Shown: in pieces, positions 4,038 through 49,849 of the stretch
Position numbering within the stretch: position 1 is the first letter of the stretch
How the letters are laid out: each line of letters opens with the position of its first letter
DNA from: Candidatus Bathyarchaeota archaeon
Lineage (GTDB): Archaea; Thermoproteota; Bathyarchaeia; 40CM-2-53-6
Length of the DNA stretch: 49,849 bases
NCBI GenBank assembly: GCA_005888635.1
Contig: VBAW01000024.1
Coordinates: 1-49,849 of the forward strand
Direction of reading: 5' to 3'
Translations under genes and position numbers: made by a program
The notes under the pieces: model-generated
Database searches by the model: none
Seen by the model: the letters and a program-made list of their open reading frames with translations, nothing else
Told to the model about the DNA's origin: nothing

Positions 4038-4679
4038 TCAGTCCTGGTCGTCCTGTTCGCGTACTAGTTGACCTCTAATCTCTCCACCTGTATGGGCTGT
4101 GGTGTGTACGTTGACGTAGGTATTCCCGGCAATTAGGGCGTTGATGAAGTCGGTCCACGTGTTGATTCCTGCCTCGGGGCGAGCTACGAGGTTGGCTGAT
4201 GTTCGAGTGCCTTCGGCGAGAGTGTCGCATCCTCTTGTGCTATTGAATGGAGTCGGAGAGCCAAAGAAGGGTAGAACGACTGGTCCGTTGGTACCCGCGG
4301 CGCCGATGTGGATGTGCGAAGCTATGACGTTAACGATGTTACAAACTACTACTTCGAATGACAGAGTGTTGTTGTCTTCGCTGAGTTGGACTTCGGCAAA
4401 TCCGAACGCCATAGTGTTGACTGCTGGCACCTGCTGGTCGCCCGTTAGGCGAATGTGGAATCGTATCGTAAGCCCTTCGTGATTCGTCTCTTGGGCACTC
4501 TGGTGGTGGGCGCCTTCGTTTTGGCCATTATCGTCAGCATTTGCAAGATGAGGTAGTGCTGCTAGCATTCCAAGCGTGGCGAGAAGAACCAAGGGTAGAA
4601 GTATTTTCAAACCAAAACCCTCATGTGCAGCCTCATTCTTTGCAAATTTAACGCTTTCCAACGCGGCATTTGAGAGCAT
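4038..4679 (-). CDS. Secreted CHRD-domain protein
   Basis: From ATG 4679 the product has about 213 residues: a hydrophobic signal or anchor segment (about residues 24-44, ending HLANADD) and then one CHRD domain with its typical elements FHIRLTGDQQVPAV, ASHIHIGAAG and VNVHTTAHTGGEIRGQL. CHRD domains occur in extracellular proteins of bacteria and archaea, often many in soil organisms, with no known catalysis. A TATA-like GGATATCC about 27 nt upstream supports ATG 4679 over the longer TTG 4778 form. Two Cys in the domain (VVCNIV and RGCDTL) could form a disulfide. It converges with the C45 gene. Confidence 0.85.
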   Translation of the reverse strand: MLSNAALESVKFAKNEAAHEGFGLKILLPLVLLATLGMLAALPHLANADDNGQNEGAHHQSAQETNHEGLTIRFHIRLTGDQQVPAVNTMAFGFAEVQLSEDNNTLSFEVVVCNIVNVIASHIHIGAAGTNGPVVLPFFGSPTPFNSTRGCDTLAEGTRTSANLVARPEAGINTWTDFINALIAGNTYVNVHTTAHTGGEIRGQLVREQDDQD

Positions 4680-44377: not shown

Positions 44378-45832
44378 CTAGATTTTCCAGAGGCTTCGCG
44401 GGAGTTGTGGCATCAAATTTCTAGGGCTTGGATGTGTGTTGATGGCGGCTACTGGATGATAAGTGGGCGTGTCAAGTCTTGAAGCGTATACTGCTAGAGC
44501 GAATGCCCATAGTCGGTCGTCATGGGTCCCGCTGACATGCGAGAACTGTAGCTGGCCTGTTTTTGATAGTTGGAATCGTTCCGCGCTCATTTCGTTTATC
44601 AGTTCAGGGTCGCGTGGGAAGTGTAGGTGGCCGTCTTGCATCTTCCGTTTGAAATAGTCCATTATCTCCTGCTTCTTCGGTAAAGATAGAAAGATTCCTT
44701 GCGCGTTCTTTAATCCTGATTTGTACGCGTCCTGGACGAAGAACTCACCGACACCGGTCTGGTCGATGTAGATCCGGGACACTGTCTTCAGCCTCTGGTT
44801 CAGGAGGTTTAGATATCCAGTTACCGCGGAGAAGGCGGTGCCCGGCGGGAAAGCCGTTTCGTGCACGAGATATACGTCTCGCCCAATTTTCTCAACAACA
44901 GCCACCGCTGACAGGTCAATCTTCGGAGCGAGATCAGTGCCCACGAAAAACTTTCCAGTCCTTGCCAATCGTCCGCTTATCACGTCATCCTTGGTGAAAG
45001 TCTCGGGCCCTTCAGTCACGCAACTCTCGATGAGCTCGAGAGGCAGGTATGCGTCCTCATCGTCCGCGAAATCTGCTTCCATCTCCCGCTTCCACCGTCC
45101 CGGGTCCGTCTGATACTGTCTGCGAATCTTTTCCAGAAACTCTGGATCGATGGGACCGTTAGGCTTCAACGCGTCTTTGTAGCTTACATGGTGGCGCGAG
45201 AAATCTCCGAACTGTTCATCGTCTGTCCCTATGTTGTCGAACAGAGTGTCCCTGGACCCCGGAGTGCTCGTCCCATAGAAGCTGCCGTTGGTAGTGCTCA
45301 ATGCGAAGATTATCGCGTCATACAATTCCTTGTCGTGCTCGATGTACGCGAACTCGTCCAGCACGACCACGTTCAGAGTCTCCCCGCGAATGGTGTCGGG
45401 ATTGTTTGGCAGAGCCTCTATCACGGACCCGTTCCGAAACGCGAGCCTCCCCTTCCTCGGCGGACCCTCGAGCACCTCCCGTCCCAGCCTTGACAAGAGT
45501 CTGGAGATCTTGTCTACCATCTTCAGGCTCTGCCGCTTGCTTGGAGCAACAATCGCAGCTCTGAACCCTTTCCGGGTGAGAGCGTTGAAGAGGACCGCTA
45601 CTGCCATGGCGAGGCTTTTGCCGCTCTGCCTCGACCAGCGGGCGAGAATAAACTGGCTCTTGTCTCGGAGGAGTTTCTCTTGATAGACTGTGGCTTTGAA
45701 GCCTAGACGTTTGAAGAACTCAACCACATCGGTCTCGTCGATTAACGGTCGGTCGCTAGCTTCGTCCCATTCGCGCTTCTTCTCAAGATTCTCGTAGTAC
45801 CGGTTGATCTTTTTCCCAGGCGATGTTATCAT
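44378..45832 (-). CDS. Phage-type terminase large subunit (TerL)
   Basis: A 484-residue viral packaging motor: ATPase with the variant Walker A RWSRQSGKS (65-73), Walker B VVVLDE (155-160) followed by FAYI, coupling region FYGTSTPGS, then an RNase H-like nuclease starting GTDLAPKIDLSAVAVVE (Asp300 and Asp306), with IYIDQTGVGE and a late GTHDDRLWAFALAVYA carrying further acidic residues. Both domains look intact. It is the last gene of a tight minus-strand trio (gaps of 9 and 14 nt). No portal, capsid or protease gene is in the window, so this is a provirus relic, satellite or the edge of one. Confidence 0.92.
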   Translation of the reverse strand: MITSPGKKINRYYENLEKKREWDEASDRPLIDETDVVEFFKRLGFKATVYQEKLLRDKSQFILARWSRQSGKSLAMAVAVLFNALTRKGFRAAIVAPSKRQSLKMVDKISRLLSRLGREVLEGPPRKGRLAFRNGSVIEALPNNPDTIRGETLNVVVLDEFAYIEHDKELYDAIIFALSTTNGSFYGTSTPGSRDTLFDNIGTDDEQFGDFSRHHVSYKDALKPNGPIDPEFLEKIRRQYQTDPGRWKREMEADFADDEDAYLPLELIESCVTEGPETFTKDDVISGRLARTGKFFVGTDLAPKIDLSAVAVVEKIGRDVYLVHETAFPPGTAFSAVTGYLNLLNQRLKTVSRIYIDQTGVGEFFVQDAYKSGLKNAQGIFLSLPKKQEIMDYFKRKMQDGHLHFPRDPELINEMSAERFQLSKTGQLQFSHVSGTHDDRLWAFALAVYASRLDTPTYHPVAAINTHPSPRNLMPQLPRSLWKI

Positions 45833-47211: not shown

Positions 47212-47289
47212 ATGTCAGAATCGGAAGATACTGACATTATTCCTTCGCCAACCAGTATGTACATGCGCCTACGGACATCACCACCATGA
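47212..47289 (+). CDS. 25-codon ORF coupled to the ATPase start
   Basis: A short ORF begins at ATG 47212 (MSESEDTDIIPSPTSMYM, then a basic end) and stops at TGA 47287-47289, overlapping the ATPase ATG 47286 as ATGA. A TATA-like box at the right distance points to 47212 as the first codon of the mRNA. The same four-base overlap is used by true operon genes here (2798, 6820). It may be a leader peptide for coupled translation. Its short length leaves real doubt. Confidence 0.45.
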   Translation: MSESEDTDIIPSPTSMYMRLRTSPP

Positions 47290-48326
47290 ATTCGTCCCTT
47301 GCCAAGACAGCTATCCCAAGCCAGGACTCACTGGCGAAGGTCACCTACTACAAGCTCGACCTTGACACTATCCTTGACGGGCTTATTCCTGATCCGCTTC
47401 CGGAATCGGGCGGCAAAGACAATGCTATTCATCACTTGAACATCATAATCTTTGGAAAGCCAAACACTGGCAAAACCACGTTGGCGGAATCGATTTCTCA
47501 AGCGTTAGCGCGTAGATATGGTCAGAGGAATGTGAAGGCACTGCGCGCTTCGCGTGACCTTCCAGGTTTGTTTCAGAATATCGACAAGCTCTTCGGCCGT
47601 TTCCGGAAGCCTCCGAAGGCGATACTCTTGTTTGCTGATGATATGACGAAGGCGCTGAGAAAACTTTCTGGGACCGTCGAGGTGAAAAATTCCAACGGAC
47701 AGTTGGAGAAGATGCGGAGGATCGATTACTGGCTGGACAAGTGGTACGACATTAGAGGCGAACTCTTCAAGCGTGGCATGCGCCAGGGGTTGGTGGTCAT
47801 GGTTGCGGGTCTCCACCGTTTCTACGGGGGCGATATAGATCTGCGGGCTGATGCGGACCTCTTACTTGTCAGAAGCACTGGAACGCCTGGCACGTTTGAC
47901 GCGAACAAGGTCGAGAAAATGCTCGGTTCAGTCGTCTACTACGCCATGCGTCAGCATGAAGTTGACGCTTTGCGGGACAGGAAGGAACTTGCATGGACTG
48001 CCTTCGTGGCAAAGACAGGCTCGGGGGTCTTCCGTGTCCCACGTCCCTCAGTTTCCACGAAATGGCTGATGCGAAATGTTGGATCTGTCGAGACCTTCCA
48101 AGAATTCGCCGTCGAGGTTGACGAGCCTAAGAAGAAATCAGCTATCGAAGTTGTTGAGCCGAAGAAGAGATTGGCAGTCGAAGAGAGGCCAGTCATTCAG
48201 CTAATACAGCATCTTCAGCCCAAGCGGCATAGGACCAAGCGAGGTCGGCGTGTCGCAATCGTTATTGCGGCTGTCGGTGTTTTGACGATAGCCTACTTGG
48301 CCTGGAAATATGTTTGGCCTTTCTAA
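47286..48326 (+). CDS. P-loop ATPase with C-terminal membrane anchor
   Basis: A 346-residue protein with Walker A GKPNTGKTT (57-65) and Walker B AILLFADD (112-119), an acidic linker at 280-300 with repeated EVxEPKKK/R units, a basic KRHRTKRGRR stretch (about 312-322) and one C-terminal helix (about 324-343) ending WKYVWPF. This is a tail-anchored cytoplasmic ATPase, recalling Zot/pI-type virion-assembly ATPases and plasmid-transfer ATPases in layout, but the family is not identified. It sits in the terminase neighbourhood, so a role in a mobile element is plausible. ATG 47286 overlaps the preceding short ORF (ATGA). Confidence 0.78.
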   Translation: MNSSLAKTAIPSQDSLAKVTYYKLDLDTILDGLIPDPLPESGGKDNAIHHLNIIIFGKPNTGKTTLAESISQALARRYGQRNVKALRASRDLPGLFQNIDKLFGRFRKPPKAILLFADDMTKALRKLSGTVEVKNSNGQLEKMRRIDYWLDKWYDIRGELFKRGMRQGLVVMVAGLHRFYGGDIDLRADADLLLVRSTGTPGTFDANKVEKMLGSVVYYAMRQHEVDALRDRKELAWTAFVAKTGSGVFRVPRPSVSTKWLMRNVGSVETFQEFAVEVDEPKKKSAIEVVEPKKRLAVEERPVIQLIQHLQPKRHRTKRGRRVAIVIAAVGVLTIAYLAWKYVWPF

Positions 48327-48416: not shown

Positions 48417-48728
48417 TCAGCCTTTCCAGAGTCCTATCGCTGCTCCTGCTAGAAATGTGACCGAGGATATCGGTAACAAGCTGGCCAGTCCGATGGCTTG
48501 GGACACTATTGGCTGCGCTCCGTTGAAGACGTAGTAGATGGTATTTGCTGAAGGCGTGGTCCATGCGAGATTGAGGTAGCCTGTGACCCCGAGTAGTCCG
48601 ACCAATGCTACGATAGCGAGGGCGAGCTTGATCGCTCTCTTGATAATCACTCCTAGTAGGATTCCGATGATGAATGTTGTAACGGAGAGCACGGAGATTA
48701 TGGTGGTTAGGTCGAGACCGTTTGCCAT
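48417..48728 (-). CDS. Small FUN14-like membrane protein
   Basis: A 103-residue protein with three to four hydrophobic segments, starting MANGLDLTTIISVLS. The stretch FIIGILLGVIIKRAIKLALAI, in which a Gly-rich helix is followed by basic residues and a second helix, and the end FLAGAAIGLWKG resemble FUN14-domain proteins common in archaea. Function unknown. ATG 48728. Convergent with the ATPase. Confidence 0.65.
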   Translation of the reverse strand: MANGLDLTTIISVLSVTTFIIGILLGVIIKRAIKLALAIVALVGLLGVTGYLNLAWTTPSANTIYYVFNGAQPIVSQAIGLASLLPISSVTFLAGAAIGLWKG

Positions 48729-48992: not shown

Positions 48993-49071
48993 TTATCTTT
49001 CCTTTTCTACTAACTTTTCTTTTCTGTTATCTTTCTTTTTTCTACTAACTATTTCTCGACCCCCCCGGGGG
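48993..49071. repeat. T-rich tandem repeat and GC palindrome before the tRNA fragment
   Basis: An imperfect direct repeat of about 23 bp, each copy TTATCTTT...CTACTAACT, lies at 48993-49015 and 49027-49050 (about 34-bp period). A 10-bp palindrome CCCCCGGGGG follows at 49062-49071. The T-runs are good archaeal terminators for plus-strand transcripts; equally, paired repeats next to a tRNA fragment may be recombinase arm sites. Confidence 0.45.
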
Positions 49072-49079
49072 TATCTGAA

Positions 49080-49090
49080 AATAAAAAAAC
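49080..49090 (-). terminator. T-run after the tRNA 3' end (minus strand)
   Basis: The plus-strand AATAAAAAAAC reads as GTTTTTTATT on the minus strand, about 30 nt past the CCA end of the tRNA fragment, a typical archaeal tRNA terminator. Confidence 0.45.
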
Positions 49091-49119
49091 TCCTTCACAC
49101 TTTACAGGCTAGAACCCTA

Positions 49120-49165
49120 TGGTGCGGGAGGTGGGATTTGAACCCACGAACCCCAGGACTGGCCA
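49120..49165 (-). tRNA. 3' part only of a leucine-type tRNA gene (likely attachment site)
   Basis: Minus-strand reading: an encoded CCA (49122-49120), discriminator A, acceptor 3' strand CTCCCGC (49130-49124), T-stem GTGGG/CCCAC (49147-49143 and 49135-49131) with loop TTCAAAT, then a class II-like variable region CCTGGGGTTCG and CCAGT as the anticodon-stem 3' strand. The partner GCGGGAG for the acceptor 5' strand, which would appear on the plus strand as CTCCCGC, does not occur between here and the window end, and no D-arm or anticodon arm is found. Only tRNA positions about 39-76 are present, the usual product of integration into a tRNA 3' end. A split tRNA 3' half is a rarer alternative. 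Confidence 0.7.
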
Positions 49166-49272
49166 AGGGCACTGGTTCAGTTGTCATGCATGCTCAAGCC
49201 TCCCCATTCTGCCAAGGATTAAGATAAGCCATAGGTGAGAGAACATACTTCATTGCAGACAAGGTAGGCATC

Positions 49273-49849
49273 ATGAGCATTGCTCAGGTCAAGCTCTACT
49301 GCACAAACTGTGGCATCAGGAGAACCTACCAGCCAGGGGAAGAGGTTCCAAAACTGTGCCCTCAGTGCCAGAGAGATTCCAGACCAAAGTATGCGTGGTT
49401 GAGAAGCAAGATTCCCTACATGCCTGCACTGGCATCTCTGAGTATTCTGTTCTCTTTGAGTTTCTATGACCTGTTTGTGGTAAGATCTAGGGAGAGCCCA
49501 TGGCTTCCTTACAACATCTTTGCGCTAATGTTCTTCAGTCTACCATGGATGGTTGTCACCTTGCTAAAGGATTGGCCAAAGCCCCCAAAAGGTCCTCACA
49601 TAGTCTCTGAGATTAAGTGGTCAAGACAGGATGCTTCTCCCCAAGAACTTGTAGGCGAGAAGATACTGGTGATCCTGGAAGGGCGTTATCCTAGGAAGAG
49701 ATTCGTCTCCACCATAGAGGGATACAGGCCCATCCTCATGGACCCAACGGAAGATGGGAGCTGGGAGAGTGACAGGCTCTATGTTCTGAGACCAGCACAA
49801 GATTCCATAGAGGCTGGCCCATTCCTCTTCCATCCAGATTGGGTACAAT
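49273..49849 (+). CDS. Zinc-ribbon plus two-helix membrane protein (partial, runs off right edge)
   Basis: The frame from ATG 49273 stays open to the window end (192 codons). It begins with a zinc ribbon YCTNCGIRRTYQ...LCPQCQ (two CxxC pairs), followed by two membrane helices (about residues 52-66 and 80-95), then a soluble domain with SPQELVGEKILVILEGRYPRKRF. No family recognised. Arg is almost always AGA or AGG, Pro often CCA, and CpG nearly absent (6 in about 590 bases), unlike all other genes here. TATA-like ATTAAGATAA (49218-49227) lies upstream. Together with the adjoining tRNA fragment this marks it as foreign DNA. Confidence 0.8.
   Translation, partial: MSIAQVKLYCTNCGIRRTYQPGEEVPKLCPQCQRDSRPKYAWLRSKIPYMPALASLSILFSLSFYDLFVVRSRESPWLPYNIFALMFFSLPWMVVTLLKDWPKPPKGPHIVSEIKWSRQDASPQELVGEKILVILEGRYPRKRFVSTIEGYRPILMDPTEDGSWESDRLYVLRPAQDSIEAGPFLFHPDWVQ

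Follow-up and report, generated by a model that had tools for sequence, protein, structure and literature searches.

The stretch of DNA analysed here, referred to below as the window, comprises 49,849 nucleotides of a Candidatus Bathyarchaeota archaeon and corresponds to contig VBAW01000024.1 (C36), which stops at 49849, where the window also ends. It belongs to assembly GCA_005888635.1 (G000; 2.18 Mb in 159 contigs). Near this end, the chromosomal flank contains an AAA ATPase gene (47286..48326, plus strand; Pfam AAA, 2.6e-5), a FUN14-like gene (48417..48728, minus strand; Pfam FUN14, E 0.0021, below the cut-off; 92% in G009) and, downstream of a tRNA sequence, a repeated pyrimidine-rich module (49011..49119). 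Then follows, at 49120..49154 on the minus strand, what by eye is only the 3' part of a tRNA-Leu gene, namely the end of the variable loop, the T-arm, the 3' strand of the acceptor, an A and an encoded CCA. The same 35 bases form the core of an integrase gene start, int(N) (49120..49187, minus strand), in which a GGAGG motif precedes an ATG at 49187 and 11 codons lead in frame into the core; this arrangement recurs in two other genomes, G028 and G003. An 85-bp spacer (49188..49272), equal in length in G028, separates int(N) from a divergent zinc-ribbon gene (49273..49848, plus strand), which is cut by the contig end after 192 codons.

ARAGORN called no whole tRNA in the window, with introns allowed or not, although the program also missed an intron-bearing tRNA gene on another contig, C5, and Rfam gave nothing above the gathering score, all matches being below it. 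A whole, intron-bearing tRNA extending to the right was considered and rejected, given that by eye the 5' acceptor partner is absent from 49155-49300, where the integrase start sits. The truncated tRNA with an encoded CCA that the sequence-only reading described is thus borne out.

Composition changes at the same point, as that reading had also noticed. The observed/expected (o/e) ratio of CpG drops from 0.98 to 0.14 at the tRNA core: the last CpG before the change lies at 49147, within the core, and 49161-49849 contains six (49394, 49523, 49656, 49684, 49704 and 49748). The number of CpG per 689 bp ranges from 27 to 64 across 1-49119 (mean 44.7), or about 3.9 per 60 bases, in agreement with the roughly 3-5 originally estimated for the genes to the left; in a further 69,844 bases of this genome, taken from ten pieces, the o/e over 690 bp never falls below 0.69. 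The tract 49155..49849 can be read as the right end of an integrated CpG-poor element. The observation of a border at the end of the window is confirmed, and its reading as the right border (attR) of a foreign element inserted in the 3' end of a tRNA-Leu gene is supported by the comparisons described below.

Two other features of the window deserve mention. The pyrimidine-rich module, about 90 bp with CCCCCCCGGGGG at 49011-49110, occurs at 14 other places in the genome, and at four of these it adjoins a tRNA 3' end; the copies include C5:44516-44644, C56:42250-42383, C56:70680-70818 and C151:3417-3562, along with ten more, and the module is perhaps a terminator or a repeat. Further to the left, CpG-normal DNA contains a gene for a terminase large subunit (44378-45832; PF03237, 2.2e-10; PHROG 2, 1.2e-35). 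No structural gene was recognised among the few neighbours scanned, and this region is a possible provirus remnant.

A search of the G000 assembly with the end of the window found seven places, among them the end of C5. There, beyond genes identified by eye as those for SecY and ribosomal protein L15, is an intron-containing tRNA-Leu gene, the 3' end of which (51795-51829) is identical to the 35-base core; with one further base on the 3' side, C36 and C5 have 36 bases in common. Directly after this tRNA, 51842-52113, up to the contig end, contains 3 CpG (o/e 0.21). The geometry of the two contig ends is that of a putative integration into a tRNA 3' end, with the whole tRNA at one border. Both things that the sequence-only reading had sought to the right of the window, a complete tRNA-Leu ending identically and an integrase within CpG-poor sequence, are present, but on C5, that is, at the other end of the element. 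Two points count against this assignment. The anticodon loop, CTGAGGC, giving GAG, was read by eye without an ARAGORN call, and the borders lie on separate contigs, the middle of the element not having been found in the G000 assembly by integrase, zinc-ribbon or G028-cargo searches. By eye, the tRNA genes at C5:51700-51829 (locus L008) and at two other loci, L006 and L007, seem to have two or more introns in unusual places, and ARAGORN missed them with introns allowed.

The two borders appear to share one gene. Because one reading frame links the ATG at 49187 in the window, across the tRNA core, to the protein encoded on C5, integration seems to have split an integrase gene, leaving int(N) in the window and int(C) on C5. 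Between the core and the conserved domain, that frame on C5 contains no ATG, GTG or TTG. The tRNA fragment recognised at the outset would therefore also be the site inside the integrase gene at which the insertion divided it. C5 retains the first 90 residues of int(C); the catalytic half is absent from the G000 assembly and present in the G003 homologue. Over 86 residues, int(C) is 77% identical to a 283-aa recombinase of archaeon 13_2_20CM_2_53_6 (MNDT01000065.1, the same sequence as contig C43 of G003), which matches PF00589 with E 3.7e-16. The residues R, K, HxxR, H and Y, which we take to be the catalytic positions, appear conserved in seven aligned relatives. The 90-aa piece has no relative in IMG/VR, and a literature search for archaeon 13_2_20CM_2_53_6 by name found nothing. 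G024, a relative whose frame contains a GTG immediately ahead of the conserved domain, counts against this reading, in that some copies might produce int(C) by itself.

Related genomes provide empty and occupied versions of the site. L15 is present in 17 of the 18 genomes of the genus, and tRNA-Leu accompanies it at 13 of the 14 L15 loci examined from genomes other than G000. G008 (contig C40) has an empty site in which L15, tRNA-Leu, the pyrimidine-rich module and an AAA ATPase gene (78% to window 47413-48319) follow one another, so that the flanks found on C5 and C36 are joined with no element between them. The FUN14-like gene, missing from this site and located on another G008 contig, counts against a perfect match. 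The tRNA-Leu of G009 is also empty and is followed by DNA that in G000 adjoins another tRNA, at C5:44516; the G009 counterpart of that tRNA in turn adjoins the FUN14-like gene, and the module adjoins tRNA-Leu in G009 as it does in G008. The segment between the two tRNAs (C5:44516-51829, L008) is inverted in G009 (L016/L024, L029) relative to G000 and G008, with an outward-facing, inverted copy of the module at each tRNA.

Remnants of the same integrase follow tRNA-Leu at two of the 13 loci (G024 and G004), and in G004 a second 38-bp repeat lies 3,773 bp away. On contig C43 of G003, there is an attR in which a separate int(N) starts at 4264, and an AAA ATPase gene homologous to that of the window follows. 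Near G004:C28 28189 (L038), the element-adjacent tRNA-Leu seems, by eye, to lack the D-arm and the anticodon arm, which would be a deletion or an assembly error.

A whole element is available in G028, which represents another genus of the same family. Here, a 183-kb contig carries a complete 3,424-bp element that lies between 48-bp exact repeats in another tRNA gene, and the right end of this element resembles that of the window, with an int(N) start, an 85-bp spacer and a divergent zinc-ribbon gene. The best ungapped block between the two spacers is identical at 19 of 23 positions, against at most 16 in 200 shuffles, and the zinc-ribbon proteins are 44% identical over 52 aa. Among 256 genomes of the class, the zinc-ribbon gene was found only in G000 and G028, and each of two cargo proteins of the G028 element only in G028 itself. 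The zinc-ribbon protein of the window matches Pfam zinc-ribbon models below the cut-off and has no PHROG match, no match in phage records and no relative in IMG/VR, less than 1 kb of the element being in the assembly. G005 contains a 5,604-bp interval between 44-bp repeats. The att lengths (36 bp in G000, 38 in G004 and 48 in G028) compare with about 40-50 bp given for suicidal integrases in a section of a review (PMC8371274).

Taken together, these data make it very probable that an integrative element has its attR at the end of the window and that its tyrosine recombinase gene, carrying the att site, was split by integration at tRNA-Leu(GAG). The att site near the 5' end of this gene would be a translated copy of the tRNA-Leu 3' end. 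Recombination with the chromosomal tRNA-Leu(GAG) would rebuild the whole tRNA at the C5 border, followed by the catalytic int(C), and the window border would keep the 3' tRNA fragment along with int(N), which has the integrase start codon and 11 codons ahead of the core. The borders, the core, the frame, the empty site and the relatives at the same and at other tRNAs can be read directly from the sequences. From the split, we infer that integrase activity was probably lost and the element trapped, in which case excision should need an integrase from another element.

The main rival originally named was a chimera, with an assembly error having joined another organism's CpG-poor DNA to the chromosome at the 3' end of a tRNA. 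In its favour, the change does fall at a sequence common to several tRNA genes, and C36 and C5 both end within 0.7 kb of it. However, such an error would be needed twice, at two sites that adjoin in G008; on both occasions it would have to fall at the boundary of that one core and yield a single integrase frame, and the right end is also present in an independent assembly, G028. The matching second border on C5, the frame across the core, the empty site and the G028 relative that support the border of a CpG-poor mobile element thus render a chimera very unlikely, to the point that we give it almost no weight. There is a slight chance that the integrase is an ordinary one of the pNOB8 type, the gene of which starts after the tRNA, with nothing split and the open frame through the tRNA due to chance. 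Eleven codons and a 35-base core could stay open by chance, the tRNA frame differs between copies, and G024 has its GTG after the core; C5, however, offers no start codon between the core and the conserved domain, the layout of the int(N) start is the same in G000, G003 and G028, and the frame is open in 12 of the 13 copies with a tRNA in the host's family. On these counts, a chance overlap of the integrase frame and the tRNA was rejected.

The CpG shortage itself is real, CpG-specific and expressed at the codon level. The 192-codon zinc-ribbon gene has 6 CpG, compared with 32.4 +/- 4.2 (minimum 17, 2000 recodings) when recoded with host codon usage, and the int(C) piece has 2 compared with 14.4; because recoding yields far more CpG, amino-acid content is ruled out as the cause. 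CGN accounts for 2 of 23 arginine codons in the element versus 338 of 587 in 27 host ORFs, and C makes up 2 of 24 of the third-position pyrimidines that precede a G, versus 1055 of 1713. NCA codons show no clear excess (22/57 in the element, 617/1794 in the host), and the TpG/CpA value is 1.22 in the element, 0.97 in the host and 1.35 at the G028 right end. Strong loss is found in part of the relatives only. The G028 element has a CpG o/e of 0.59 overall and 0.05 at its right (zinc-ribbon) end, G003 and G004 have 1.15 and 0.95, respectively, and other integrases of the family range from 0.52 to 1.24 over the first kilobase.

The explanation that fits best, to which we assign about an even chance, is that the element evolved in a CpG-poor lineage and arrived recently, its signature fading with age. 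CpG-poor genomes exist in the class, with 8-kb samples at 0.37 (G209) and 0.56 (G016) among 19 readable ones; CpG is normal in the remnants and in the G003 and G004 elements; and the lack of a clear NCA excess speaks against deamination alone. Nevertheless, no sample reached 0.15 overall, although 0.17 was seen over 700 bp of G031, an AT-rich sample, and the concentration of the loss at the zinc-ribbon end of G028 also counts against this explanation. A possible but less likely cause is that, in its free state, the element underwent CpG methylation with deamination or was under pressure to avoid a CpG-directed defence. The raised TpG/CpA and the near absence of C before G at the third position are in its favour; against it, arginine was kept through AGA/AGG, which is not a deamination product, NCA again shows no clear excess, and 0.96 kb of the element revealed neither a methylase nor a defence target. 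Literature searches found nothing linking CpG depletion to archaeal mobile elements or reporting CpG under-representation in archaeal viruses. Nearly CpG-free DNA is a sharp marker of this element and raises a testable question on archaeal CpG methylation or CpG-directed defence. Composition-based binning easily loses such DNA, which may be why the middle of the element is absent here.

In the host's family, matches to the integrase occur in 10 of 21 genomes and, by our count, represent 16 distinct genes. In 13 of these, the conserved domain is preceded by a tRNA T-arm at a distance of 45-75 nt. The one of these 13 without an open frame, in G005, has a stop between tRNA and integrase. For the other three genes, G021:C11 and G011:C29 show no upstream tRNA, and G003:C43 is on a contig that starts inside the gene; like the stop in G005, these count against the split-gene reading. 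Seven different tRNA 3' ends are used and read in differing frames (RGFKSHLPH, SWVQIPPAP, VGSNPTPRT), and several copies are broken by internal stops or are fragments. At G000:C94 7928-8818 (L098, L132), the window's own genome carries another integrase of this family (39%, with a single internal stop), in frame with another tRNA end and in CpG-normal DNA.

At E 1e-15, the integrase family is represented in 160 of the 256 class genomes, with about 50% identity at best outside the host's family. None of 28 such loci (30 were fetched, two being from the host's family) has a T-arm in up to 330 nt upstream; by eye, many have a CxxC zinc-finger-like N-terminus instead. An in-frame T-arm is nevertheless not confined to the host's family, being found at one of 16 IMG/VR loci. 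This locus (L114, 8421-9734 of IMGVR_UViG_3300035688_000062) encodes a 437-aa integrase in which the in-frame T-arm separates a CxxC zinc-finger-like N-terminus from the conserved domain, and is likely a self-splitting integrase with its gene intact. The integrase matched 28 phage records, all below 60% identity, the named ones being bacterial phages. In a tree of 34 integrases, from which L086 was dropped as too short, a moderately supported branch (87/88, the bootstrap being unsettled) has the seven from the host's family together on one side; since the root is arbitrary, the direction of change cannot be taken from it.

Profile searches place these integrases apart from the known suicidal ones. 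PF00589 matched all seven host-family integrases scanned and PF16795 none (the first scan used a limit of E 0.1 and the later ones E 1), whereas the SSV1 Int control matched PF16795 (1.5e-61) and PF07935 and, at E 1, did not match PF00589. When SSV1 Int was compared by BLAST with 34 integrases of this group, the best E was 0.60, and the group profile gave SSV1 4.6 bits. In NCBIfam, XerA_Arch is matched at 3.4e-17, far below the cut-off, and the nearest solved structure is that of XerA (5hxy, E 9e-8).

In its mechanism, the element resembles the SSV-type, or suicidal, integrases (SSV1/SSV2, pTN3, pT26-2): the attP lies in the integrase gene, the target is a tRNA 3' end, and the gene is split into int(N) and int(C). 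For that type, sections of PMC8371274 and PMC3293823 describe an attP within the integrase gene and an att translation that varies between relatives. Because the seven integrases match PF00589 and not the PF16795 of SSV1 Int, the element would work like the SSV type yet fall outside the known suicidal families, as far as this feature goes. By sequence, it belongs with the XerA-like PF00589 integrases of the same class but differs from them in the upstream T-arm, which those 28 loci lack, and in the CxxC N-terminus that many of them have. It also recalls the cryptic integrated elements of Thaumarchaeota, which, in the portions of PMC6563490 that concern them, are small, with an integrase and few recognisable genes, and one of which, NitEve-E3, has a split integrase. 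That integrase is described there as SSV1-like, however, and the att sites as mostly under 26 bp, compared with 36-48 bp here. With NitEve-E3 in print, self-splitting outside the hyperthermophile groups of the review is not new in itself.

A 2021 review of archaeal tyrosine recombinases, in the sections that treat suicidal integrases, ties them to PF16795 and suggests a single origin (PMC8371274); beyond this review, we found no literature on suicidal integrases with PF00589. The matches to PF00589 only, together with the 28 related loci without a tRNA in the gene, suggest an independent origin of self-splitting. More broadly, we consider it an evenly balanced proposal that archaea evolved integrases of the self-splitting, tRNA-targeting kind twice, the second time in a PF00589 (XerA-like) family with no family-level relationship to those of SSV, pTN3 and pT26-2; that a translated tRNA end replaced the N-terminal part; that at least seven tRNA 3' ends were reached; and that some of the elements evolved to be nearly CpG-free. 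If true, a self-splitting PF00589 family with non-splitting relatives in the same class would provide a second natural experiment on why mobile elements break their own integrase, with before-and-after comparisons available.
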